Positions 31,617 to 44,975 of a stretch of DNA of 60,870 bases are shown one piece after another; positions within the stretch are counted from its first letter, which is position 1; every line of letters begins with the position of its first letter. Origin of the DNA: an uncultured Eubacteriales bacterium (GTDB lineage Bacteria > Bacillota > Clostridia > Christensenellales > Aristaeellaceae). The stretch covers positions 1-60,870 of the forward strand of contig OMZY01000016.1 of the NCBI GenBank assembly GCA_900315675.1, read 5' to 3'. The notes under the pieces were generated by a model, which was not told the DNA's origin, did no database searches, and was given only the letters and a program-made list of their open reading frames with translations. Position numbers and translations under genes: made by a program.

Positions 31617-33149
31617 TCAGCTGTCCCTGAGGATGTAGCCCATGATCTCTTCCTGGGTGGTCTCCCGGGCATTCAGCTCAGCAAGCAGTCTTCCTTCATT
31701 CATAACATAGATGCGGTCGCACATACCCAGCAACTCAGGCATTTCAGAGGAAATCATCACAACTGATTTGCCGTCTGCCACCATCTTGTTCATCAGGCAG
31801 TAGATATCGTACTTCGCGCCGACGTCAATACCGCGGGTCGGCTCATCCATGATCAGAATGTCAGGTTCCGTAAACATCCATTTGCCCAGCAGGGCCTTTT
31901 GCTGGTTTCCGCCGGACAGGTTGCCCACCTTCTGCTCAATGGTGGGGGTCTTTGTGCCCATTTCGTTCTTCATTTCTTCCGCCACATTCTTTTCCTTGTC
32001 GCGGTCAATGATCGAATGATTGCTGACCTTGTCCAGTCGGGGCAGCGTTGTATTGAATCGGATGCTCTCATTCAGCAGCAATCCGTTTGTTTTCCGGTCT
32101 TCTGTAATATAGGCAAGACCTGCGTGGATGGCCGCTTCCGGATTCTTCAGGTTCGTCTTCTTTCCGAAGAGGTACAGTTCACCGCTGATATCAGTACCGT
32201 AGCTCTTGCCGAAAATCGACATGGCCAGCTCCGTACGTCCGGCACCCTGCAGGCCTGAGAAACCGATAATTTCTCCCTTGTGCACTTTGAATGAGATGTT
32301 GTCGTCGACGACCTTTTCCGGATACAGCGGATGATGGACCGTCCAGTTTTTCACTTCCAGGCTGACGTCTTCCTGTACGTTGTGTTCCCGTTCAGGATAA
32401 CGGTCGTCCATGGAACGTCCGACCATGCCCTTGATAATCCGGTCTTCGCTGAACTCATCGACGCCCTTGACCAGGGTTTCGATGGTGGAGCCGTCACGGA
32501 TGATCGTGGCTTTGTCGGCACAGTAAATGATCTCATTCAGTTTATGCGTGATGATGATGGAGGTAAGTCCCTGCTTTTTGAACTCCATCAGCAGATCCAG
32601 CAGCATTTTCGCGTCTTCGTCATTCAGGGATGACGTCGGCTCGTCCAGGATCAGCAGCTTAACGTTCTTGGAGAAAGCCTTCGCTATTTCCACCAGCTGC
32701 TGTTTGCCTGTACCGATATCCTTGATCAGGGTATGGGCTGATTCGTTCAGTCCAACCTGCCTCATATGCTTTTCCGCTTCGGCATAGGTCTTGTTCCAGT
32801 CGATAATTCCCGCCTTGTTCTTGATTTCGTTGCCGAGGAACATGTTTTCCCCGATGGACAGCAGCGGGATAAGGGCCAGTTCCTGGTGGATGATAACGAT
32901 GTTTTTCGCTTCGGATTCCTTCAGCGTTTTGAACTGACACAGTTCACCGTTATAGTAAAAATCTCCGGTATAAGTCCCATAGGGATATATTCCGGAAAGG
33001 ACGTTCATCAGTGTGGATTTCCCTGCACCGTTCTCGCCGATCAGTGCGTGAATCTCTCCTCTTTCGACAACCAGATTAACATTATCCAGTGCCTTGACGC
33101 CCGGGAATTCTTTGGTGATGTTTTTCATTTCCAGGATCACATCAGCCAA
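31617..33149 (-). CDS. mmsA: Multiple-monosaccharide ABC ATPase
   Basis: About 510 residues with two ATPase halves: Walker A GENGAGKST and signature/Walker B region (LLILDEPTSSL) in the first; LSGGNQQKALLGKW and ILIMDEPTRGID in the second, which has a degenerate Walker A (GLQGAGRTE) as usual for this sugar family. I take TTG 33149 as start because AAAGGAGGG lies 8 bases upstream and the product then begins MADVILEMKNITKEF; the open frame reaches to 33218 without another signal. A rare start may keep ATPase levels below those of the binding protein. Confidence 0.9.
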   Translation of the reverse strand: MADVILEMKNITKEFPGVKALDNVNLVVERGEIHALIGENGAGKSTLMNVLSGIYPYGTYTGDFYYNGELCQFKTLKESEAKNIVIIHQELALIPLLSIGENMFLGNEIKNKAGIIDWNKTYAEAEKHMRQVGLNESAHTLIKDIGTGKQQLVEIAKAFSKNVKLLILDEPTSSLNDEDAKMLLDLLMEFKKQGLTSIIITHKLNEIIYCADKATIIRDGSTIETLVKGVDEFSEDRIIKGMVGRSMDDRYPEREHNVQEDVSLEVKNWTVHHPLYPEKVVDDNISFKVHKGEIIGFSGLQGAGRTELAMSIFGKSYGTDISGELYLFGKKTNLKNPEAAIHAGLAYITEDRKTNGLLLNESIRFNTTLPRLDKVSNHSIIDRDKEKNVAEEMKNEMGTKTPTIEQKVGNLSGGNQQKALLGKWMFTEPDILIMDEPTRGIDVGAKYDIYCLMNKMVADGKSVVMISSEMPELLGMCDRIYVMNEGRLLAELNARETTQEEIMGYILRDS

Positions 33150-33186
33150 GTCGGATCCCTCCTTTGATTTAACAAACAACTCTGAA

Positions 33187-33215
33187 AACAGGGCGGGGCT
33201 GAACCCCGCCCTGTT
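33187..33215 (-). terminator. Hairpin between chvE and mmsA
   Basis: AACAGGGCGGGG and CCCCGCCCTGTT with a 5-base loop; minus strand continues TTTTCAGAG. It probably ends most transcripts or protects the chvE message, giving excess binding protein. Confidence 0.85.
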
Positions 33216-33237
33216 CATTTGTTTTGCTAGAGTCTAA

Positions 33238-34347
33238 TTACTTGGCCAGCAGATACTTCTGGTCAGCGTCCCACTGATACAGGCCGATGTCAACCAGCTC
33301 CTGCAGGTTGTCAGCGGTGATCACGGAAGGCACGAGCAGGAAGGAATTCGCGAAGTTGCCTTCAGAGGTGAAGTAGGAAGTGGTGTCGAACGCGCAGGGG
33401 ACATCGAAGGTCTTTACGAGTTCTTCGCCGTTGACTTCGCCTTCGAGGATGGCCTTGGCAACAGCCAGGGTCACGACGGCTTCGTTCGCAACGTTCTTGT
33501 AAACGGTCATGGTCTGCTTGCCATCAACGATGTTCGCCAGGTTGGCGATGTCGCCGTCCTGTCCGGTCACGACCACAGCATTGGTTCCGGCATAGTCAGA
33601 TTCAATAGCCTGGGCAACACCGGCAGCGGTGGAGTCGTTGGAGCACAGCCAGGCATCCAGCTGGGTGCCGTCGGCATAGTAGGAAGCCAGGATGTTCTGG
33701 GCGCGGGCCAGAGCGGTGTCAGTGCTCCACTGAGCGGTGGCAACAGCCTGGAACTCGGTCTGTCCGGAAACAACCTTCAGGGTGCCGGCATCAATGTAGG
33801 GCTTCAGCACGTCGAAAGCGCCGTTGAAGAAGTAGCCAGCATTGTTGTCAGCGGGGTCACCGGCGGTGAACTCGATGTTGAAGGTCTTGTCACCGGCGTT
33901 GGCCAGATCCAGAGCGGTTTCAACATACTGTCCCTGCAGCTTACCAACGGTATAGTTGTCGAAGGAGACATAGTACTTGGAAGCGTCGTTGATGATCAGG
34001 CGGTCATAGGACAGAACCGGAACGCCCTTTTCAGCAGCGGAGTCCATGCAGGTGTTCAGGCCTTCGCCGTCGATAGCGGAGACGATCAGGAGATCGACGC
34101 CGTCGCTCAGCATGTTGTCGATGTCGTTAACCTGCTGATCGTTCTTGTTGTCGGAGTAGGTCAGGATAGCGTCGTATCCGGCAGCTTCGAACTGTTCCTT
34201 CAGGTAGGTGCCGTCACGGTTCCAGCGTTCGAGGGACTGGGTGGGCATCGAGATACCAACCTTTTTCTTGGCGCCTTCAGCAGAAGCGAAGGAGCACAGG
34301 CTCAGCACGAGAGCCAGAGCGAGAACCAGAGCAAGGATCTTCTTCAT
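33238..34347 (-). CDS. chvE: ChvE-like sugar-binding protein
   Basis: 369 residues. Signal peptide MKKILALVLALALVLSLCSF with likely cleavage after ASA; the only nearby cysteine is not in a lipobox. The binding fold is in the normal order: KKVGISMPTQSLERWNRDG, then NKNDQQVNDIDNML and YYVSFDNYTVGKLQG, then CSNDSTAAGVAQAI and TGQDGDI. ChvE/MmsA-linked proteins bind several aldoses (arabinose, galactose, glucose, xylose). AAAAAAAGGAGTG precedes ATG. First gene of its operon. Confidence 0.92.
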   Translation of the reverse strand: MKKILALVLALALVLSLCSFASAEGAKKKVGISMPTQSLERWNRDGTYLKEQFEAAGYDAILTYSDNKNDQQVNDIDNMLSDGVDLLIVSAIDGEGLNTCMDSAAEKGVPVLSYDRLIINDASKYYVSFDNYTVGKLQGQYVETALDLANAGDKTFNIEFTAGDPADNNAGYFFNGAFDVLKPYIDAGTLKVVSGQTEFQAVATAQWSTDTALARAQNILASYYADGTQLDAWLCSNDSTAAGVAQAIESDYAGTNAVVVTGQDGDIANLANIVDGKQTMTVYKNVANEAVVTLAVAKAILEGEVNGEELVKTFDVPCAFDTTSYFTSEGNFANSFLLVPSVITADNLQELVDIGLYQWDADQKYLLAK

Positions 34348-34410
34348 AGTTTGGGTACACTCCTTTTTTTAATTTTTCCCGGATTTCTCATCCGGAAATG
34401 AACTGACCAT

Positions 34411-34439
34411 ATTTTACACTTTCACTCTCTGTTTGTAAA
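34411..34439 (-). promoter_or_regulatory. chvE promoter
   Basis: Minus strand TTTACA (34439-34434), 17 bases, TAAAAT (34416-34411). Confidence 0.7.
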
Positions 34440-34456
34440 TAGATTCACGCAAATTT

Positions 34457-34472
34457 TCGGAAACGATACCGA
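34457..34472. promoter_or_regulatory. LacI-family operator-like palindrome
   Basis: TCGGAAACGATACCGA is a near-perfect palindrome centred on CG, the style of LacI/GalR operators, 18 bases upstream of the -35 box. Confidence 0.55.
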
Positions 34473-34504
34473 AAGAAAACAATATTGATTTTCCTCACTT
34501 TTTC

Positions 34505-34518
34505 AGCAAACGTTTTCA
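34505..34518. promoter_or_regulatory. cre-like site upstream of chvE
   Basis: The minus strand reads TGAAAACGTTTGCT, close to the CcpA consensus TGWAANCGNTNWCA (last two bases differ in part). At about -75 it would fit activation or fine control by carbon state. Confidence 0.5.
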
Positions 34519-34537
34519 CTTTTTGTCGGTGAATCTA

Positions 34538-34795
34538 TCAATTATTGTCCTGGTTGTCTTCGTCCCTGTTTTCGCTTTCCTGCTTCTTTCCAAGGCGGTA
34601 TATATGCCATGCGTAATACAGCGTTCCCAGCCCGCCCAGGCCCAGGACAACAATTGCAATAATATTCAGTGCCGGCGGCATTTCCCCGGCGTTGCTCCGG
34701 TATTTGTCAAGCAGGACCCAGGCAATGTACAGGATGTACGCTCCCACCGCTGCCAGCAGGGCGGAATGTACCCCTGTGTTGTATTTCCCTTTCAT
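34538..34795 (-). CDS. Small two-helix membrane protein
   Basis: 85 residues from ATG 34795 (AAAAAGGAG upstream). Two membrane helices (ALLAAVGAYILYIAWVLL and ALNIIAIVVLGLGGLGTLYYAW) and an acidic tail EDNQDNN. Not recognised. Confidence 0.65.
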   Translation of the reverse strand: MKGKYNTGVHSALLAAVGAYILYIAWVLLDKYRSNAGEMPPALNIIAIVVLGLGGLGTLYYAWHIYRLGKKQESENRDEDNQDNN

Positions 34796-34863
34796 ATTGC
34801 AGCATCTCCTTTTTGAATTGATACCACTATAGTTCATTCTCCTGTTTTTGCCAAGTACGGAAA

Positions 34864-34892
34864 AACCGGCACCTGTTCAGACAGGCACCGGT
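34864..34892 (-). terminator. Imperfect hairpin after the coiled-coil gene
   Basis: ACCGGCACCTGT (34865-34876) faces ACAGGCACCGGT (34881-34892) with two central mismatches; minus strand continues TTTTTCC. Confidence 0.6.
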
Positions 34893-34912
34893 GCGGCACA
34901 GGTGTGCCTTAT

Positions 34913-35158
34913 TTACAGTTTGAATATACCCATGGCTTCCAGGATGATCAGGATGACCACAATCGTCAGCAGTACGGATACAACCCAGATGATCCGGTCC
35001 ATCGTTTTCACGCTGACATTGATCCGGTCGTACCAGGATTCCTTCTTGGCCTTTACTGTCTGAGAAAAGAATCCCAGCTCCTTTTCCTTTTTTTCCAGAT
35101 TCTTTTCCCGCTCTTCCAGCTCTTTTTCCCGCTGTTCGAGCTCCTTTTCCTTATCCAT
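34913..35158 (-). CDS. Coiled-coil membrane protein
   Basis: 81 residues: a heptad-patterned, strongly charged coil (ELEQREKELEEREKNLEKK) at residues 5-28, a short linker, and one membrane helix at about 57-77 (WVVSVLLTIVVILIILEAMGIF). Its ribosome site TAAGG overlaps the stop codon of the broken permease gene just upstream, so it was once translated together with a sugar permease. It may link a transporter to another membrane complex; no known family. Confidence 0.7.
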   Translation of the reverse strand: MDKEKELEQREKELEEREKNLEKKEKELGFFSQTVKAKKESWYDRINVSVKTMDRIIWVVSVLLTIVVILIILEAMGIFKL

Positions 35159-35163
35159 AAGCC

Positions 35164-35268
35164 TTACTTCTTCGCAATATACTTGCGGATGTCCAGGGAG
35201 ACGGCCAGCACAATCACCAGGCCCTGCACCACATTGTTGTAAAACGCAGCCGATGTCAAAAATGAGGA
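35164..35268 (-). pseudogene. C-terminal remnant of a sugar ABC permease
   Basis: The minus strand reads AFYNNVVQGLVIVLAVSLDI then RKYIAKK and a stop, the usual last 30 residues of RbsC/XylH-type permeases. An in-frame stop at 35269-35271 and unrelated sequence lie before it, so the rest of the gene is gone. It shows that another sugar transporter gene, linked to the 81-residue coiled-coil gene, was deleted here. Confidence 0.7.
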
Positions 35269-35381
35269 TCAGCTATTGTTCTGGTTTACTGTATCCTGCC
35301 TTCCTGACACCTGATACAGATTTGTGTTTCAGCATAATGCCGTGAATGCAGGCCACAGAAGCAAACGCTTATCAGATAACA

Positions 35382-35411
35382 TCCGGCGCCCGTTAGTCAG
35401 GCACCGGATGC
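35382..35411 (-). terminator. mglBAC terminator
   Basis: CATCCGGCGCC with GGCACCGGATG in imperfect stem; on the minus strand it lies 17 bases past the mglC stop. Confidence 0.6.
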
Positions 35412-35428
35412 TTGCCTGCAGAAAGGGA

Positions 35429-37084
35429 TTATTTTTTCTGAACATACTTGAGGCAGTCGATCGTCACGGCGGAAAGAATGATGATACCGGAGAAAACGAA
35501 CTGCAGGTTCGTATCCACGCCGAGGATCGTCAGGGAGTAGGTCAGGGCGGTGAACACGAGCACGCCGACCACGATGCCCTGAATCTTGCCGATTCCGCCC
35601 TTGAAGGAGATTCCGCCGACCACACAGGCTGCGATGGCGTCAGTCTCCCAGCCCTGGCCGTAGGCCGCGGAGCCGGAACCTACCATGCGGATGCACTCCA
35701 GCCAGGCACCGAAGCCATACAGGATACCGGCAATAACGAACGCGGTCACCGTAACCTTGAACACTGAGATACCGGATACCGCTGCTGCTTCCGGGTTGCC
35801 CCCCACAGCATACATGTTTTTGCCCAGTTTAGTCTTGTTCCAGACAAACCACATGATGATCACTGCGGCAACCGCCCATAAGATGATTGTCGGAAATTGT
35901 CCGCCAAAGATCTTTGGCATGATTGTCTTGGGAATGGACAACTCGATCGCGCCGAAGGAAACACCCTTTGTCGCAAAGGTAATCAGACCAAACATGATCA
36001 GCATGTTCGCCATGGTGGAGATAAAGGGATGGATCTTGAACCGGGCCGTAAAGAAGCCCGCAATGGAAGTAAACAGTGTAGTGATGCAGCAGCAGACCAC
36101 CAATGCCAGCACGATCCGGATCCCTACGGGCAGGGCAGTAAAATCAAAGACGTTGCCGAACAGTGCGCCTGTGTTGATACCCTTGTGCATGATCATGGTG
36201 GACATGACCATGCTCGTGCCGACCATCCGGCCCACGGACAGGTCTGTGCCGCCAAGCAGAATCAGGCCGCCGACGCCCAGTGCCAGGAACATGCGGGGCG
36301 ACGCCTGCTGAAGAATGTTCAGGATGTTATTGATCGTCAGCAGCTGAGTATGCTTGATAATCGGCGTCAGAATGCACAGCAGGATGAAGATGAAAAGGAT
36401 CGCAATGTACAGTCCGTTCTTCAGCAGGAACTGTTTGACGTTGAACGTATACCTGTAGTTTTCCCACTTCTGCTTCTGCTTTTCCGCGAACGTGAATTTG
36501 GAGAGCCTCAGCAGGTCGATCAGGTGATACCGGTGGGCAAAAGCTTCATGTTCCCGATCCTTGATTTCCTGCAGGGTAGCATCATGCTTCAGTTTGGCGT
36601 CGAAAAGCCTGTTCTTGAAAACATACTTTTCTTCCTTGATTTCAGCGCTGTTCTTCAGTTTGGCCAGTTCCGCCTGATGACCGGCTTTCAGGTCCAGCAG
36701 TTCCTTTTCGTAACGGCTTATCTCCGCCGCTTTCTGTTCCCTGCAGGAAGCCGCCACCTTGGTGAAATACTCCTTGTCATAGTGTTCATCCAGGTATTTC
36801 ACCGCGTCATCGGTCAGCTTCCTGACCTCCGGCTTGTTCTTCTGTTCAATCGCTTTGGCTTTTTCCAGGGCTTTCTTGTCCTCCGCGATGATGGAAGCCT
36901 TCTCATTCCTGGAGTAATTGGCGTTTTCCCTGACCACCGCGATATGGTTGTTCAGGGCAATGATCTGGTCAGTTCCGTCCAGGCGCAGTTCATTGATCTT
37001 CTTCTGGATCTTTCCGACATATTCATCAATGGGTTGAAGCAGATTCTGCTCCGCTTCCACTGTAAGGATCATTTCGTTTTCCAT
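35429..37084 (-). CDS. mglC: MglC-type galactose/methylgalactoside permease with long coiled-coil N-terminal extension
   Basis: 551 residues, against about 340 in Escherichia coli MglC. Residues 1 to about 215 are hydrophilic and helical with many Lys/Glu heptads (KKALEKAKAIEQKNKPEV; EISRYEKELLDLKAGHQAEL). Membrane segments begin at about 221 (LKNGLYIAILFIFILLCIL); the permease core then has LGGTDLSVGRMVG, FKIHPFISTMANML and YAVGGNPEAAAVSGI. GGGGGAG precedes ATG 37084 and no internal start with a ribosome site was seen before the membrane domain, so the extension is real. It lies in the cytoplasm and could contact MglA or another partner. Confidence 0.88.
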   Translation of the reverse strand: MENEMILTVEAEQNLLQPIDEYVGKIQKKINELRLDGTDQIIALNNHIAVVRENANYSRNEKASIIAEDKKALEKAKAIEQKNKPEVRKLTDDAVKYLDEHYDKEYFTKVAASCREQKAAEISRYEKELLDLKAGHQAELAKLKNSAEIKEEKYVFKNRLFDAKLKHDATLQEIKDREHEAFAHRYHLIDLLRLSKFTFAEKQKQKWENYRYTFNVKQFLLKNGLYIAILFIFILLCILTPIIKHTQLLTINNILNILQQASPRMFLALGVGGLILLGGTDLSVGRMVGTSMVMSTMIMHKGINTGALFGNVFDFTALPVGIRIVLALVVCCCITTLFTSIAGFFTARFKIHPFISTMANMLIMFGLITFATKGVSFGAIELSIPKTIMPKIFGGQFPTIILWAVAAVIIMWFVWNKTKLGKNMYAVGGNPEAAAVSGISVFKVTVTAFVIAGILYGFGAWLECIRMVGSGSAAYGQGWETDAIAACVVGGISFKGGIGKIQGIVVGVLVFTALTYSLTILGVDTNLQFVFSGIIILSAVTIDCLKYVQKK

Positions 37085-37099
37085 GTCGTTCTCCCCCTC

Positions 37100-38605
37100 T
37101 CACAGATATTTGGCGCTCAGTCTCAGCAGCTCTTCCTGGTCGGTATCTCTCGTGTTGACGATACCCGCCAGGCGTCCGTTGGACATAACGCCGATCCGGT
37201 TCGTGATACCTAAGATCTCAGGCATCTCGGAGGAAACGACAATAATCGTCTTCCCCATCTTGGCCATCCTGATGATCAGTTCATAGATCTCGTATTTTGC
37301 GCCGACATCGATACCGCGCGTCGGTTCATCCATCAGGAATACATCCGGAGCCCGCTCCAGCCACTTGCCGAAGATCACTTTCTGCTGGTTACCGCCGGAA
37401 AGCGCTGTGATCGCGTCAGAAGGCCCCATGCACTTTGTGCGCATCACATTGATCTCATTCGCTGTCGCCTTGACCATTTTCTCCTTCGACAGCGCAATGC
37501 CCGCAATATAATGTGACAGGTTGGTGATCGTCGTATTGAAGGTCAGGTCGCCCTCCAGAAACAGTCCGGTTGCCTTCCGCTCTTCCGTGATCATGGCAAA
37601 GCCGTGGTCCATGGCGTCACGGGAGCTGTTGAAATTGATCAGTTTGCCCTTGAAGTACACGCGTCCTGCCGCCCTTGTCCGGACTCCGAACATGGTCTCC
37701 AGCAGTTCTGTCCGGCCGGCGCCGACCAACCCGTACAGGCCGAATATCTCCCCTTCCCTTACGTCGAAACTGATATCTTTCAGGTTCGGCTCAAATTTTG
37801 TGGAAAGGTTCTGAACAGAGAGCACCACCTCTCCGGGCGCGTTGTCAACAGGCGGAAAACGGTTGTCAAGCGTCCGGCCGACCATGGCTGCGATCAGCTC
37901 GTTCATGTTGGTCTCTCTGATCTCTTTGGTCAGGACCATCTTGCCGTCCCGCAGCACGGAAACCTCATCGCATATCTCAAAGATCTCATCCATCTTGTGG
38001 GAAATATAGACCAGTGAGATCCCCTGTGCTTTCAGGTTACGCATCATCTCAAACAGCTTGGCAACTTCCTTTACTGTCAGGGATGATGTCGGCTCGTCAA
38101 GAACGATCAGCTTCGCATTGTAGGAGATGGCTTTTGCGATCTCCACCATCTGCCTTGCTGAGACAGACATCGTCTTCATCGGCGCCGTCAGGTTCACGGT
38201 CATGTTCAGTTTCCGGAACAGATCTGCCGCCTCTGTCCTCATCCGGTTCTCATCCACAGCGCCGTGCTTCATCGGGTACCGGCCCAGGAACAGGTTGTCC
38301 AGCACATTCCGTTCCAGGCATTGGTTCAGTTCCTGGTGTACCATCGCGATCCCGTTTTCCAGCGCCATCTTCGGACCGGAAAAATTGACTTCCTTCCCAT
38401 CCAGGAATATGGTCCCTTCGTCCTTTTGATAGGTCCCGAAGAGGCATTTCATCATGGTGGACTTGCCGGCGCCGTTCTCGCCCATAAGCCCCATGATGCT
38501 GCCTTCCTTCACGTCCAGGTCAATGTGGTCCAGCACACGGTTCCTGCCGAAGGATTTGCACATTCCGCGGATAGACAGGACATTCTTCGTATTCTGTTCA
38601 GCCAT
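37100..38605 (-). CDS. mglA: MglA-type sugar ABC ATPase
   Basis: 501 residues, two ATPase halves. First: Walker A GENGAGKST, VSARQMVEIAKAI, LIVLDEPTSSLT. Second: GLVGAGRTE, LSGGNQQKVIFGKW, VFLMDEPTRGIDVG. It energises uptake through MglC. The start is 47 bases after a hairpin that follows mglB, and it ends 15 bases before mglC. Confidence 0.93.
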   Translation of the reverse strand: MAEQNTKNVLSIRGMCKSFGRNRVLDHIDLDVKEGSIMGLMGENGAGKSTMMKCLFGTYQKDEGTIFLDGKEVNFSGPKMALENGIAMVHQELNQCLERNVLDNLFLGRYPMKHGAVDENRMRTEAADLFRKLNMTVNLTAPMKTMSVSARQMVEIAKAISYNAKLIVLDEPTSSLTVKEVAKLFEMMRNLKAQGISLVYISHKMDEIFEICDEVSVLRDGKMVLTKEIRETNMNELIAAMVGRTLDNRFPPVDNAPGEVVLSVQNLSTKFEPNLKDISFDVREGEIFGLYGLVGAGRTELLETMFGVRTRAAGRVYFKGKLINFNSSRDAMDHGFAMITEERKATGLFLEGDLTFNTTITNLSHYIAGIALSKEKMVKATANEINVMRTKCMGPSDAITALSGGNQQKVIFGKWLERAPDVFLMDEPTRGIDVGAKYEIYELIIRMAKMGKTIIVVSSEMPEILGITNRIGVMSNGRLAGIVNTRDTDQEELLRLSAKYL

Positions 38606-38651
38606 ACTATTTCCGCCTTTTCAGCTTTTCTTGAATCATTGTACCATAAAA

Positions 38652-38688
38652 ACGGGGCATCAGGAAGAGGACTTTCCTGATGCCCCGT
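38652..38688 (-). terminator. Hairpin between mglB and mglA
   Basis: ACGGGGCATCAGGAA (38652-38666) and TTCCTGATGCCCCGT (38674-38688), 15 perfect pairs; minus strand continues TTTTTATGG. Confidence 0.88.
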
Positions 38689-38721
38689 CCTCCTATTCAG
38701 GATTGGGATTGCCTGTCGGAA

Positions 38722-39975
38722 TTACTGAAGCTTCACCATGTAGGAAGCAGCGTTGTCAGTCTTCACCATGTTGATGGCGAATCCGTCGTACTCATCGGGG
38801 TTGCCCAGACGGTCGGTCAGGTTGCCTTCAGTCTGGCCGTCACCCTTCACGTATTCAACATCCAGGTTCAGGATCTTCTGATAGTTCTCCAGCTGGGGAA
38901 CGTAGGTGGCATTCAGGAAGTTATCGGCGGCGTTGTAAACACTCAGCCATACTTTCTTGGTGGGAGCCTGTTCTTCAGTCAGCTGGAAGTTGAACTTCGC
39001 GTTGGGAGCGGTGGCATCCATGAACAGTTCATAGTTGTCAGCGGTCACAGCGCCGTTCAGGGCGTAGAAGCAACGGGTCGCTTCATCATAATAGTACAGG
39101 TCGTCGCTCAGCACGTTGCCGGCAGCGTCGGGGTTCTTGATACCAACCATGATATCAGCGTCATCCAGCGCGTTGCGCAGGGTGCGCAGGGTCAGGTAGG
39201 CCTGCACGTCAGCGTTCTGGGAGATGGTGCCGCAGTAGCCGTCCGCGATGGCAGCAACAGCGTCGCTGTTGGCGTCATAGCCGAAGGTGGGAACCTTGTT
39301 GTCCTTGGACCATGCAGTGAACACAGCCATGCCCATGCCGTCGTTGTTGGAAACGACCACGTCGATCTGATCGCCGAAGGTGCCGCTCCAGATGCCGATG
39401 GCATTGCCGGCGGTGGCAGCATCCCAGGTCGCGCCAACGCTGTTCTTCATTTCCTGGGAAGCCAGCTCACGGACGATATAGGTTTTTCCGCCGATCTCAA
39501 TCTCGCCGTCCTTGACAGCGGTTGCGGAACCGTCGGTGTTGGTGCCGATGGGGGAAGGATCAACATCACCGATACCGGCAACTTCGGTCTTGCCCTGGCC
39601 GACGTCCGGCATGGCGGTACCGAGGGCCAGACGGGCGCCGCGGGTACGGGCAATGGAGTCGTTATGGCCAACGTCACCGATGCACAGCACATAACCGATA
39701 ATACCGTCGCCATTGCGGTCGAGGCCTTCGCCATTGGCTTTCAGGTAGTTAACGACCATTTCGCCCTGCAGTACAGCACCCTGCACCGCGTCAAAGCCGA
39801 CGTAGTAGGTCTTGTCATTGAAGGTCAGGGCGTCCATGTCGAGTTCGCCCGTCGTGCTGTTGGAAGGCTGACGGTTATACCAGATCACGGGTTTGCCAGC
39901 GTTATCAGCCAAAGCAATGTTTACGATACCGAGCAGCATCACAGCTGCCATTACCAGGGACAGGATCTTCTTCAT
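38722..39975 (-). CDS. mglB: MglB-type galactose/glucose-binding protein, apparently circularly permuted
   Basis: 417 residues (Escherichia coli MglB has 332). After the signal peptide (cleavage after NIALA, no lipobox) the mature chain starts PVIWYNRQPS...YYVGFDAVQGAVLQGE, which matches a point about 110 residues into ordinary MglB (VVFFNKEP...YYVGTD). It runs through DVVVSNNDGMGMAV and VTADNYELF, the ordinary C terminus, then continues with KKVWLSVYNAADNFLN ... GNLTDRL ... YDGFAINMVKTDNAA, which matches the ordinary N terminus (IGVTIYKYDDNFM ... ALAINLVDPAAA). The segment order is thus swapped. From memory, Treponema pallidum TpMglB-2 (Tp0684) shows a comparable divergent topology with glucose as ligand. 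AAGGAGACGGTAAC precedes ATG. Confidence 0.88.
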   Translation of the reverse strand: MKKILSLVMAAVMLLGIVNIALADNAGKPVIWYNRQPSNSTTGELDMDALTFNDKTYYVGFDAVQGAVLQGEMVVNYLKANGEGLDRNGDGIIGYVLCIGDVGHNDSIARTRGARLALGTAMPDVGQGKTEVAGIGDVDPSPIGTNTDGSATAVKDGEIEIGGKTYIVRELASQEMKNSVGATWDAATAGNAIGIWSGTFGDQIDVVVSNNDGMGMAVFTAWSKDNKVPTFGYDANSDAVAAIADGYCGTISQNADVQAYLTLRTLRNALDDADIMVGIKNPDAAGNVLSDDLYYYDEATRCFYALNGAVTADNYELFMDATAPNAKFNFQLTEEQAPTKKVWLSVYNAADNFLNATYVPQLENYQKILNLDVEYVKGDGQTEGNLTDRLGNPDEYDGFAINMVKTDNAASYMVKLQ

Positions 39976-40258
39976 GTTACCGTCTCCTTAAAAAATATTA
40001 TTTTTTCATGCGGATCCATGCCGCATTGAAACCTGTTTTAAACAGTATGTATCCTATCATACATTTTGGACGAAAATCTACCGGTTTGGACAAGTGCAAA
40101 TGAATTTGAACTTCGACCAAATAAAAACGAATCGTTTCTGATTTCGGCTTAAATGTACGTACTTAACATGCCTGCAAATTAAGTACGTACAACGCGTTCG
40201 CTGATCCGCAACGTTATGCAGTACCACAGGCTTTCAGCCCTTATCCGGCAACAAAAAA
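39976..40258 (-). other. mglB upstream region with two palindromes
   Basis: No gene. AAACGAATCGTTT (40125-40137) is a perfect palindrome around a central A. GTACGTACTTAA (40155-40166) and TTAAGTACGTAC (40179-40190) form a perfect 12-base inverted repeat with a 12-base spacer. Both lie upstream of mglB in the expected regulatory zone; I could not assign -35 and -10 boxes with confidence. Confidence 0.65.
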
Positions 40259-40283
40259 GCCTCCTCCCGGGACAGGAGGAAGC
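40259..40283 (-). terminator. Terminator of the third sugar ABC operon
   Basis: GCCTCCTCCCGGGACAGGAGGAAGC forms a stem (one mismatch); minus strand continues TTTTTTGTTG. Confidence 0.8.
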
Positions 40284-40306
40284 TAAAAAGGAGGAGGATA
40301 AATTCG

Positions 40307-41278
40307 TTACTTAATGACCTTCAGCGCCTTGCGGTCAATGGTCAGCGCCACGAAGATCAGGAATACGATGCCCTTGATCAGCTGCTGCACCTGGGGTTCG
40401 TAACCCAGGATGGACAGGCCGCTGTTCAGGATCGCGTACATCAGGGTACCGATAATGATGTTGGAGAACCGTACCTTCGCGCCGCCGGTGATCGGCAGTC
40501 CGCCGAGCACCAGGGAAATCAGGATCTGAGTTTCCAGCTGGTTACCGGCCGTCGCGGTAATGGAACCGACCTTGATCACGTTGACAAATGCTGCGAGACC
40601 TGTCAGAGCGCCGGCCGCCACAAAGGCCAGGAACTTCACCCTTCCGGTCCGTACGCCGGAGAACCGGGCCGCCGTTTCACCGGAACCGACTGCTTTCACG
40701 TCGTTGCCGATCCGGGTGAATTTGAACAGGAAGAAGGCCACTGCCAGCACCGCCAGCGTAATGGTGATCTTCAGCCAGTCCTGGTCCAGCGCCTTGATGG
40801 CATTGCTGGCAGGCACCGCGGTTTCTGTTGTGAAATAGGCGCAGACTCCGCGGAACAGGTACATGGTACAAATCGTAACAATAAAGCTCGGGAGCCTGAA
40901 CTTCACATGGAAGAACCCGTTGATCGCGCCGATGGCCGCGCCGGTCAGGATACCGCCGAGGATGGCCAGCGGGATGCTATAGAAGGACAGGACGCTGACC
41001 ACAATGGAGGCAACGCCCAATGTGGAGCCCTCTGTAAAGTCAATGGATCCGAGCGTCATGATGAAAAATACGCCCGTGGCCACAATGGTGGGATAATAGA
41101 TCTGGGAAAACAGCAGCCGCAGCTTCTTCGGCGTCAGGATCCTGCCGTCTGTAGCGATGTGCATCACCAGCAGGATAATCACAAAACCGATCAGCGGCAG
41201 GGCCGCCTTCAGACGGTCGCCGGTCAGGAACGCGCGGAGCCTGGACTGTTCTTTGGTTTCTGTATGCTTCTTTTCCAT
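40307..41278 (-). CDS. Ribose-type sugar ABC permease, subunit 2
   Basis: 323 residues, AAAGGAGGCGGAGAAA before ATG. BPD_transp_2 permease with about 8-9 membrane segments, TLGSIDFTEGSTLGV near the second segment, KAVGSGETAARFSGV and LGGLPITGGAKVRFSN. It is the last gene of an operon with a binding protein, one ATPase and another permease of equal size, so the channel is probably a heterodimer. Substrate unknown. Confidence 0.9.
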   Translation of the reverse strand: MEKKHTETKEQSRLRAFLTGDRLKAALPLIGFVIILLVMHIATDGRILTPKKLRLLFSQIYYPTIVATGVFFIMTLGSIDFTEGSTLGVASIVVSVLSFYSIPLAILGGILTGAAIGAINGFFHVKFRLPSFIVTICTMYLFRGVCAYFTTETAVPASNAIKALDQDWLKITITLAVLAVAFFLFKFTRIGNDVKAVGSGETAARFSGVRTGRVKFLAFVAAGALTGLAAFVNVIKVGSITATAGNQLETQILISLVLGGLPITGGAKVRFSNIIIGTLMYAILNSGLSILGYEPQVQQLIKGIVFLIFVALTIDRKALKVIK

Positions 41279-41292
41279 TTTCTCCGCCTCCT

Positions 41293-42792
41293 TTACACCA
41301 TTTTCTTGATCAGGTCTTCTTCGCCCAGATCCGGATCCCGGCTGAATTCACCGTTGATCCTGCCGTCCTTCATGATGAAGATCCGGTCCGCCATACCCAG
41401 CAGTTCCGGGATTTCCTCACTGATCATGATAATGGATCTTCCCTGGGTTTTCAGTTCTGCCATCAGGCCGTAGATCGCCTGTTTGACCTTCACGTCGATG
41501 CCGCGGGTGGGTGAATCCAGCACCAGGATGTCGCTCCCCTTGCCCAGCCAGCGGGCCAGGACAACTTTCTGCTTGTTGCCGCCGGACAGGTCGGAAACAA
41601 ACTGTCCCACGTTCTGCATTTTGGTCTGCATGTTCTTCGCCTGCTCATCCGCGAATCGGGTCAGCTTCCGGCCGTTCAGCAGGCCGTGGCTGGACAGGTT
41701 TTCCAGGGAAGGCAGGACGATGTTGTTCCGGATGGATTCATTCAGGATAATGGATTCGTTATCACGGTCCTTGGATGCGTAGGCAATGGAGTGGCTGATC
41801 GCGGTGGGGATATCGTTGATTTCCGTTCCGTCCGCCAGCCGCACCGTTCCCTTCCGGTCCCAGGACGCACCGAAGATCGCTTTTCCGACTTCATGCATGC
41901 CGCACTCGGACAGGCCTCCGAATCCCAGGATCTCTCCCTTGTGCAGTTCAAAGCTGATCCCGTCAAGTTCTCCAGGCACGCTGACCCCGTCCACTGTCAG
42001 GACGACTTCCTCCGATACCGGCTGGCCGTAATCGGTCCGGTAATACGCGGTTCCGATTTCCCGCCCGACCATCAGGCGCTTGAGGTCATCCTCCGTCACT
42101 TCAGAGGCATTTACCGTGTCGATGTATTCACCGTCCCGGAGTACGGAAACCGTATCCGTATGGGCCAGTACTTCGCCCAGGTCATGGCTGATGAAGATCA
42201 CCGTGCGTCCGTCCGCACGGACCGCGTCCATGATTTTGTACAGTTCCAGGCGCCCGTTCTGGCTCAGGGCGGTGGTCGTTTCGTCAATGACCAGGATCTT
42301 CGGCTTCATGTAGGTTGCCTTGACGATCTCCACCAGTTTCCGGTCTTCAAAATTGTAGTGATCGATCATCACCCCGGCCTTGATCCGGCCGAAGCCGTAG
42401 GAATCCAGAAGCTTCTGGGCTTCACGGTTCATGGCGCGGCTGTCCTTGATGCCCGTGTGCATGAAGGGCTCCTCATGGCCCAGATAAATGTTTTCAGCCA
42501 CCGTCAGTCCGGACAGCGTGCCCATTTCCTGCACGATGATGGCGATGCCGGCGTTGTTCGCGTCCACCTGGTTGCGGATGTGCAGCTCCTTCCCGTCCAG
42601 GGTGAAGGTGCCGCCGCCGATAGTATAGATTCCGCACAGCATCTGGCAGAAGGTGCTCTTGCCCGAGCCGTTCTCCCCGATCAGGCCGCGGATCTCTCCG
42701 GCTGCGATTTCCAGGGAAACGTCATTGACCGCATGGGTAATGCCGAACCGTTTGTCTATATGTTCGGCTTTCAGCAATGTTTTCTTTTCCAT
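41293..42792 (-). CDS. Sugar ABC ATPase of the third operon
   Basis: About 499 residues from ATG 42792, 9 bases after GAGGGGG; ATG 42798 is also possible. Two ATPase halves: GENGSGKST and LVIDETTTALS in the first (Walker B Glu is present, D-E-T); GLSECGMHE in place of a Walker A, LSGGNKQKVVLARW and ILVLDSPTRGIDV in the second, where Ser replaces the catalytic Glu. So only the first site looks able to hydrolyse ATP, as is common in this family. Confidence 0.9.
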   Translation of the reverse strand: MEKKTLLKAEHIDKRFGITHAVNDVSLEIAAGEIRGLIGENGSGKSTFCQMLCGIYTIGGGTFTLDGKELHIRNQVDANNAGIAIIVQEMGTLSGLTVAENIYLGHEEPFMHTGIKDSRAMNREAQKLLDSYGFGRIKAGVMIDHYNFEDRKLVEIVKATYMKPKILVIDETTTALSQNGRLELYKIMDAVRADGRTVIFISHDLGEVLAHTDTVSVLRDGEYIDTVNASEVTEDDLKRLMVGREIGTAYYRTDYGQPVSEEVVLTVDGVSVPGELDGISFELHKGEILGFGGLSECGMHEVGKAIFGASWDRKGTVRLADGTEINDIPTAISHSIAYASKDRDNESIILNESIRNNIVLPSLENLSSHGLLNGRKLTRFADEQAKNMQTKMQNVGQFVSDLSGGNKQKVVLARWLGKGSDILVLDSPTRGIDVKVKQAIYGLMAELKTQGRSIIMISEEIPELLGMADRIFIMKDGRINGEFSRDPDLGEEDLIKKMV

Positions 42793-42803
42793 GCCCATCC
42801 CCC

Positions 42804-43754
42804 TCACTTCACCACGCTGCCTCTGCCGCCGCGTGCGGTCAGGGCAACGATCGCCAGCAGCGCCGCACCGGTAACCACGTTCTGGATCGTGGTCGGGGCG
42901 CCCAGTGCCACAAAGCCGTTAAAGATAATGGAGATGATAAACTCACCGATCACGATGGCGCTGATCGGAATACCGTATTTCCGGAAGGCTACGCCGAAGA
43001 AGGTTCCCATCAGCGGCTGGAAGTTCCGGCTCATGGTACTCATGCCGGTCAGTGCGGTCATCGTGGTGCCGTAGGAAACCGTCAGGATCGCCATGATGCC
43101 AACAAAGAAGTGGAGCAGCATGAAACCGATCAGCTTATATTTTTTCACGTTGATACCCATGTTCTTCGCCGTGAACTCATTCGAGCCGATGGCGTTGCAG
43201 TAGGTACCGATTTTCGTATAATTCAGGATAAAGTACATCAGCACAAAGGCCGCCCCGGCCAGGATAATGTTTCCGGGGGCCCCGCTGAAGAACCGCAGTT
43301 CCGGAGCCAGCGTCTGCTTGACGCCGCCTGCCACGATCACGGCGATGCATTCCAGGATCAGCATCAGGCCGACCGTAACGATCATGGAGGGTACGTTCAG
43401 CTGGTTATACAGCGTGCCGATCAGCAGGCCGATCAGTGTGCCGCAGCCCAGGCATCCGACAATGAATCCGATATAGCCGAAGTGCTGGGACAGGATCACG
43501 CCGACGATGGAGGAAAACACAATGTTGGCGCCGACGGCAAAATCGAACAGACCCATAACGACAATAAAGTACAGGCCGCAGCCGCCTACAGAATAAATGA
43601 TGGACGACTGCAGATAGGAATACAGATTTGCCGGAGAACCAAAGTTCCCCGGTGTCAGTATTTTAAATACAGCATAGAAAAAAACCAGCAGTGCTGCCAG
43701 CATCAGGTAGCCGTATGCTTTTGTTCCTTTCAGTTTCTGAAGTCTGGTGGACAT
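42804..43754 (-). CDS. Ribose-type sugar ABC permease, subunit 1
   Basis: 316 residues from ATG 43754 (GGGAGCGAGG upstream). Membrane segments throughout; VVMGLFDFAVGANIVFSS, NAIGSNEFTAKNMGI and GTFFGVAFRKYG fit RbsC-like permeases. The gene ends 11 bases before the ATPase start. Confidence 0.9.
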   Translation of the reverse strand: MSTRLQKLKGTKAYGYLMLAALLVFFYAVFKILTPGNFGSPANLYSYLQSSIIYSVGGCGLYFIVVMGLFDFAVGANIVFSSIVGVILSQHFGYIGFIVGCLGCGTLIGLLIGTLYNQLNVPSMIVTVGLMLILECIAVIVAGGVKQTLAPELRFFSGAPGNIILAGAAFVLMYFILNYTKIGTYCNAIGSNEFTAKNMGINVKKYKLIGFMLLHFFVGIMAILTVSYGTTMTALTGMSTMSRNFQPLMGTFFGVAFRKYGIPISAIVIGEFIISIIFNGFVALGAPTTIQNVVTGAALLAIVALTARGGRGSVVK

Positions 43755-43811
43755 AGCCTCGCTCCCTTTTATCATTCCGGCACCGCGTCAGGCGCCCGTC
43801 TTTTGAAAAAA

Positions 43812-43846
43812 CCGGGGACGGCTGCCGCGCCTGGCAGCCGTCCGGA
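43812..43846 (-). terminator. Hairpin between the third binding-protein gene and its permease
   Basis: GGACGGCTGCC (43816-43826) and GGCAGCCGTCC (43833-43843); minus strand continues CCCGGTTTTTTC. Same position as the hairpins in the other two sugar operons. Confidence 0.85.
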
Positions 43847-43856
43847 GTATGTACAA

Positions 43857-44975
43857 TTACTTGGCGTGACGGGCCACAACGTCTTCAACAGACAGCGCGG
43901 CGCAGGCAGCGGCCAGATCGTCATAGGACAGTTCAGCCAGAGCCTTGATTTCGTCAGCGGTGTAGGGCAGTTCGCTGCCGGTGAAGTACGCGGCGTAGTT
44001 GGCGTAGCTTTCCGGAGAGTCAACGAACATGTAGGGGAAGACCATGTCATAGAAGCCGTCTTCGCTGGTGGCGTAGTTGCCCTTGATGGCATTGTAAACC
44101 ATCAGGAAGGCGAAGAAGGGATCCGCATAGTGTCCGCCGGATTCAGCAGCCATCGCGCCGCTTTCCAGTTTCGCGTCCAGGTCAGGCAGGAAGTCTGTGG
44201 AAACCACAGCGATCTTGCCGGTCAGGCCCTTGGCTTCGATGCCGGCGATCGCGCCCAGCAGGGTGTCTCCGCCGCCGCCCGCAACGATCAGGGCGTCGAT
44301 GTCGGGATTCGCGTCGATGATAGCTTCAGCGGTAGCACGGCCGGTGTCGGTGGTGGTGCGGCCGTACTGGGGCTCCAGCAGTTCAATCGTGTCTTCGGGG
44401 TTGGCGGCGTTCCATTCTTCCACGCCGGCCTTGTAGCCTTCCCAGCGGCCCAGGAACGTGGCGTCACCGGGTTCCCAGCCTTCCAGGCCGATCTTGCGGC
44501 AGCCCTTGTTGCCCAGGATGGTCACCAGGGTCTTGCCGTTGTCGAACTCGGATTCATGCACAGCGCCCACATAGTACTTGGAAGCCTTCGCCTGGGCATA
44601 TTCATCGGGGTTGGCTTCTTCGTTGATCACACGGAAGAACTGGGCAACATATACTTCGTTCTCGTCGCAGGTCTTGATGACGGAACCCATTTCAGCGGAA
44701 GCGGAGTTGCAGATGATGATACCGTCGCAATCCGCCATGGCCAGGGTCTCAGCAGAAGCAGTCACCTGCTCGGAGATGTGAGCCTGGTCAACCCACTGAA
44801 CATCAACGTCCAGCGCTTCAGCCGCAGCGTCAATCAGGCGCTTGCATTCGCTTCCCAGGGTGTCAGTGGAACTCCAGATGGAGACGCCGATCTTGATCTT
44901 GTCATCCGCGTGAGCCACGGCCATCATGCCGCACAGCATCGTCAGAGCAAGAACGAGAGCAATGATCTTTTTCAT
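43857..44975 (-). CDS. Sugar-binding protein of the third operon
   Basis: 372 residues. Signal peptide MKKIIALVLALTMLCGMMAV with likely cleavage after AHA; no lipobox. Type I binding-protein fold in normal order: IKIGVSIWSSTDTLGSECK, DGIIICNSASAEM, YYVGAVHESEFDNG, ALIVAGGGGDTLLGAI, VSTDFLPDLDAKLESG. AAGGAGGACATAG before ATG. The ligand cannot be told; the charged C-terminal helices after YPYMFVD are longer than usual. Confidence 0.9.
   Translation of the reverse strand: MKKIIALVLALTMLCGMMAVAHADDKIKIGVSIWSSTDTLGSECKRLIDAAAEALDVDVQWVDQAHISEQVTASAETLAMADCDGIIICNSASAEMGSVIKTCDENEVYVAQFFRVINEEANPDEYAQAKASKYYVGAVHESEFDNGKTLVTILGNKGCRKIGLEGWEPGDATFLGRWEGYKAGVEEWNAANPEDTIELLEPQYGRTTTDTGRATAEAIIDANPDIDALIVAGGGGDTLLGAIAGIEAKGLTGKIAVVSTDFLPDLDAKLESGAMAAESGGHYADPFFAFLMVYNAIKGNYATSEDGFYDMVFPYMFVDSPESYANYAAYFTGSELPYTADEIKALAELSYDDLAAACAALSVEDVVARHAK

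Follow-up and report, generated by a model that had tools for sequence, protein, structure and literature searches.

A circularly permuted glucose/galactose-binding protein of the TpMglB-2-like class, and its extended permease, in an uncultured Eubacteriales bacterium

We report that mglB, on a 60,870-nucleotide stretch of contig OMZY01000016.1 from an uncultured Eubacteriales bacterium (GenBank assembly GCA_900315675.1; the whole stretch is called the window here), encodes a circularly permuted MglB and is a new member of the known Type Ic / Cluster Bc (TpMglB-2-like) class. The gene (38722..39975, minus strand) is a single open frame of 417 residues with no internal stop, and its product, which has the Type Ic permuted form, almost certainly serves as the exported binding protein for glucose and galactose in an ATP-binding cassette (ABC) importer of the Mgl type (CUT2). 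The permuted order, the predicted fold, the conserved contact residues and the operon partners were all computed directly. A 2016 paper on TpMglB-2 of Treponema pallidum describes the circular permutation and a fourth hinge, tabulates the sugar contacts, suggests Type Ic and Cluster Bc as names, and reports many BLAST matches with the TpMglB-2 topology in Spirochaetes and a mainly Gram-positive gut group (PMC4990184). The initial annotation knew the topology only from TpMglB-2, which would make a clostridial member a novelty; this was wrong, because these Gram-positive gut members had already been reported there and Pfam already models the permuted C-terminal part (PF18610). A literature search did not find in print the MglC domain, the MglB origin of the C-terminal segment or the lipobox-free members that we describe below.

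The order of the family matches along the protein is that of a permuted MglB. PF13407 (Peripla_BP_4) matches residues 23-271 beginning only at profile position 76 of 258, and PF18610 (Peripla_BP_7) spans residues 339-409 with 127.2 bits against a curated cut-off of 36.8 (E 2.7e-37). The NCBIfam MglB model NF011924 matches in two pieces, the best beginning only at position 100 of its 329, and gives 97 bits where 420 is the cut-off; the protein has neither the ordinary block order nor a score that reaches this cut-off. By hhalign, the body (residues 26-318; 39022..39900, minus strand), which carries Peripla_BP_4 and runs from N-lobe strand four through the C lobe to the ordinary C terminus, aligns to canonical MglB columns 156-387. 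The transplanted segment (residues 339-417; 38725..38961, minus strand), equivalent to the ordinary N terminus, aligns to columns 78-155, so that the two pieces meet without overlap. Between them, the ordinary C terminus VTADNYELF occupies residues 310-318 and is followed by a linker of about 20 residues (319-338; 38962..39021, minus strand), which the 5jx2 alignment and the description in PMC4990184 place at the fourth hinge of TpMglB-2 and an extended stretch, and then by the 79 residues of the segment. The circular permutation proposed in the initial annotation is thus borne out by the order of the Pfam and NCBIfam matches together with the in-register hhalign match, and its coordinates and swap points lie close to those given by the tools. 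Its description of the C-terminal addition holds in that the addition matches the ordinary N terminus and contains the first strand and helix, but the matching part spans 79 residues, with a linker before it, where the initial annotation gave about 90, and it contains three strands in the structure model (340-345, 371-376 and 398-402).

The same block order extends over the whole length of TpMglB-2 (Tp0684; PDB 5jx2, 6bgc and 6bgd), which also shares the predicted fold and the fourth hinge region. Residues 26-416 of the 417 are collinear with residues 20-385 of the 387 in TpMglB-2 (E 1.2e-92; over 90% of the length, with the N termini covered), at an identity of about 42-47%. The structure model (predicted local distance difference test, pLDDT, 85.4; predicted template modelling score, pTM, 0.85) aligns to TpMglB-2 over residues 21..417 and has the permuted N-lobe topology. 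Ordinary MglB, such as E. coli 2gbp and a second copy in the window's own genome (C20:79853-80881), shares the two-lobed fold, the homologous body and the mglA/mglC operon, but differs in block order. According to the model, the chain would begin with strand four of the N lobe, run through the C lobe to the ordinary C terminus, cross back via the fourth hinge and end in the three strands that open ordinary MglB. The folded product would then be the usual two-lobed trap with the sugar between the lobes, and its closed form would pass the sugar to MglC/MglA.

The residues that line this putative trap are conserved. The contacts in Table 2 of PMC4990184 map to D351, F353, N34, H104, D106, R110, W184, N211, D234 and Q253, and all ten positions carry the residue of either TpMglB-2 or E. 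coli MglB (EcMglB). Nine of the ten are identical in TpMglB-2, including the glutamine at EcMglB N256, and nine of the ten are common to ordinary MglB. D351 keeps the aspartate of EcMglB where TpMglB-2 has an asparagine (N311). Across 85 permuted sequences eight of the positions are invariant, while F353 and D106 are each kept in 84. D351 and F353, which the transplanted segment would supply to the site, stand at the places of the EcMglB contacts D14 and F16; since two contacts lie within it, the sugar trap should need the segment. D-glucose binding with lobe closure is predicted for the window protein.

PMC4990184 left open whether the C-terminal part of TpMglB-2 derives from another gene, and such a graft, with a shape converged on that of the missing N-lobe half, seems to us quite unlikely for the window protein. 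A profile of residues 339-417 (81 sequences, effective number 1.65) was compared by hhalign with profiles of 15 ordinary MglB-like proteins and of 12 RbsB-like proteins, the latter after removal of L112 (a duplicate of L111), L115 (a fragment) and L121 (badly extracted). The segment matches the ordinary MglB columns with E 2.3e-4 (score 31.5, probability 44.7%), as against E 0.24 for the RbsB-like proteins. The match is in register across about 70 columns, none of 300 column shuffles reached its score (the best, 30.2, covered 18 columns) and the reversed profile scored 14.6. These comparisons, like the placement of D351 and F353, speak against a graft and favour a true permutation of MglB, in a manner that is suggestive rather than overwhelming; MglB itself is now favoured as the answer to the question left open in PMC4990184. 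An ordinary mglB would have been duplicated and the outer parts of the pair then lost.

Several observations nevertheless weigh against this reading of the gene. The sequence evidence that ties the C-terminal segment to MglB is modest, and addition of four more divergent members (85 sequences) lowers the score from 31.5 to 27.3 (E 1.3e-3, probability 18.3%), a weakening that a graft would accommodate; even so, the RbsB-like proteins reach only E 0.11 with this profile and none of 500 shuffles attains 27.3 (best 25.6). No duplicated mglB intermediate was found, and no search was made for one. The structure model is good but not of the top grade, with two of the five models at 75.5 and 73.9, and we infer binding and transport by the window protein, along with its sugar specificity, from comparison. 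That the last 79 residues are instead a separate added domain beside an already complete N lobe, as their own Pfam name (Peripla_BP_7) might suggest, is most improbable. The body lacks the first 75-100 or so positions of the ordinary MglB models, and the structure model aligns over residues 21..417 to TpMglB-2, whose corresponding strands complete the N lobe (PMC4990184). Indeed, the initial annotation had named a complete N lobe without the C-terminal 90 residues as the outcome that would overturn it, and structure prediction gave a whole-length match to TpMglB-2. The genome lies in 57 contigs, and an assembly error or chimera could in principle swap two pieces of a gene; this is scarcely credible, given that a single open frame with this block order recurs in the best 80 of 168 relatives and that the T. 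pallidum protein of known structure has it too. A frameshift was likewise considered and rejected.

Permuted relatives are unevenly represented. The contig scan yielded 168 relatives, and the 80 best were retained as loci; nearly all come from Clostridia and from related bacteria of the gut or rumen. Genomes with PF18610 were counted in five partly overlapping draws within the sampled phylum: two of 398 in the phylum, four of 391 in the class, two of 100 in the family with one of four in the genus (the window's own genome counted each time up to here), and, for two other families, 11 of 200 and 28 of 250. None of 14 named control genomes has it. The broad draws had suggested great rarity, a view that was dropped in the light of the two other families; the distribution in the sampled phylum is patchy.

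Downstream of mglB on the minus strand lie mglA (37100..38605; NCBIfam MglA, 670 bits, E 1.6e-201, under the cut-off of 828) and mglC (35429..37084; 551 residues, with the NCBIfam MglC match confined to residues 215-551, E 2.4e-81, also under its cut-off), and these profile matches confirm the mglB-mglA-mglC operon context read from the sequence in the initial annotation. MglC carries an N-terminal extension (approximately residues 1-218; 36431..37084, minus strand). Such a coiled-coil extension of about 215 residues is present in 75 of 75 MglC mapped beside a permuted MglB and in none of eight ordinary operons (L122 and L127-L133), that of the window's own genome included; linked inheritance means that these pairings are not independent events. 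All 73 MglC matches among the 80 loci have the extension and L125 and L134 add two, whereas in the other seven loci the fetched sequence stops within mglB, shortly beyond it or within mglA. Similarly, among the 250 genomes of which 28 hold PF18610, the extension occurs in 27, all within the 28, and is partial in three (G1070, G1306 and G1266). PMC4990184 notes that relatives of the permease Tp0686 are distributed similarly to those of TpMglB-2.

We further note that the sole PF18610 genome of the 28 without the extension (G732) has a permuted mglB for which the 14 kb of fetched surroundings give no match to mglA or mglC. Here the permuted MglB gene follows GGDEF and HD_5 genes of like orientation, separated by some 12-32 bases (L126, 7642-11027, minus strand), which hints at a sensor role.

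The extension is less conserved than the remainder of the permease, with identity to the window copy averaging 57% compared with 80% for the rest of MglC (69 loci; alignment A2 holds 45 of these, and alignment A1 47 of the 80). It is modelled with pLDDT 91.9 as long helices (9-34, 38-53, 59-142 and 146-193). The window copy matches no Pfam or NCBIfam family at E up to 0.01, and a family search across 46 members returned only scattered matches in one or two of them. No PDB sequence matched at E up to 0.01, and none of 324 weak matches to PDB folds had an E of 0.001 or less; the fold may still be a known one. A literature search returned no title about a permease extension. Its charge, the absent signal sequence and general knowledge of the permease class would place the extension in the cytoplasm, and our guess is that it might regulate or cluster the transporter.

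The window's own genome also encodes an ordinary MglABC. Its ordinary-order MglB matches model positions 2-328 (E 2e-81), has its own MglA and MglC, and with 273.6 bits likewise falls under the NF011924 cut-off. A FastTree tree of MglA groups all 15 sequences that come from permuted operons (the window, L089, L091 and 12 of the 80 loci) in one clade (support 0.915) and those from ordinary operons in another (0.73); the tree is small, several of the ordinary sequences are partial, and the own ordinary MglA appears twice (L104 and L122). This fits a single permutation event that may have been inherited with its transporter.

PMC4990184 suggested membrane tethering as a driver of the topology, and treated tethering as a commonality of most members rather than a requirement. 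The signal peptide of the window protein (residues 1-23; 39907..39975, minus strand), judged by eye to end in ALA followed by D, has no cysteine and, by motif only, would not tether the protein; by eye it differs in this from TpMglB-2, which has a lipobox. Among the 76 of 80 loci with intact N termini (the truncated L010, L021, L049 and L076 were left out), a lipobox is present in 50 (49 by motif and L068 by eye) and absent in 26. Since these 26 relatives and the window protein lack one, tethering as the driver of the topology would fail for some members unless their signal peptides stay uncleaved. The counts, which come from sequence motifs, thus weigh against tethering as a general reason. 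The window's genome has six genes over the Pfam cut-off for the lipoprotein-modifying enzyme Lgt (contigs C48, C19, C53, C11 and C39), though its permuted MglB is without a lipobox. In another genus of the window's family, a divergent permuted MglB (L125, 6605-7876, minus strand; 53% identity) has a lipobox-like LTSC and an MglC extension.

In the window, three sugar ABC transporter gene sets follow in succession on the minus strand (31617-44975). A substrate-binding protein-permease-ATPase-permease set at 40307-44975 (the binding protein by profile scan, the rest by eye) is followed by mglBAC and then by a ChvE-like binding protein and ATPase at 31617-34347 (the ATPase by eye). Two small genes of 99 and 81 residues lie between mglC and the ChvE-like gene (34538-35158, minus strand). 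They have only weak Pfam matches under the cut-off (DUF3180 and RNase_Y_N), and among the searched loci the 99-residue gene has a single weak match, in L027, and the 81-residue gene none.

Because the permutation is natural and family-wide, it can be used to probe whether docking to a permease depends on chain order, and a genome with both permuted and ordinary MglABC allows the two forms to be compared within one organism. It is conceivable, if unlikely, that the permuted MglB belongs to a distinct Mgl lineage in which the permease gained a conserved cytoplasmic coiled coil of about 215 residues, the permutation and this domain being one co-adapted redesign. Were this true, the coiled coil may cluster transporters or gate MglA from inside, and the placement of both chain ends on the same lobe may change how MglB is presented outside. 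The pairing of the permuted MglB with this permease domain, a coiled coil that matches no listed family, is a concrete new target.
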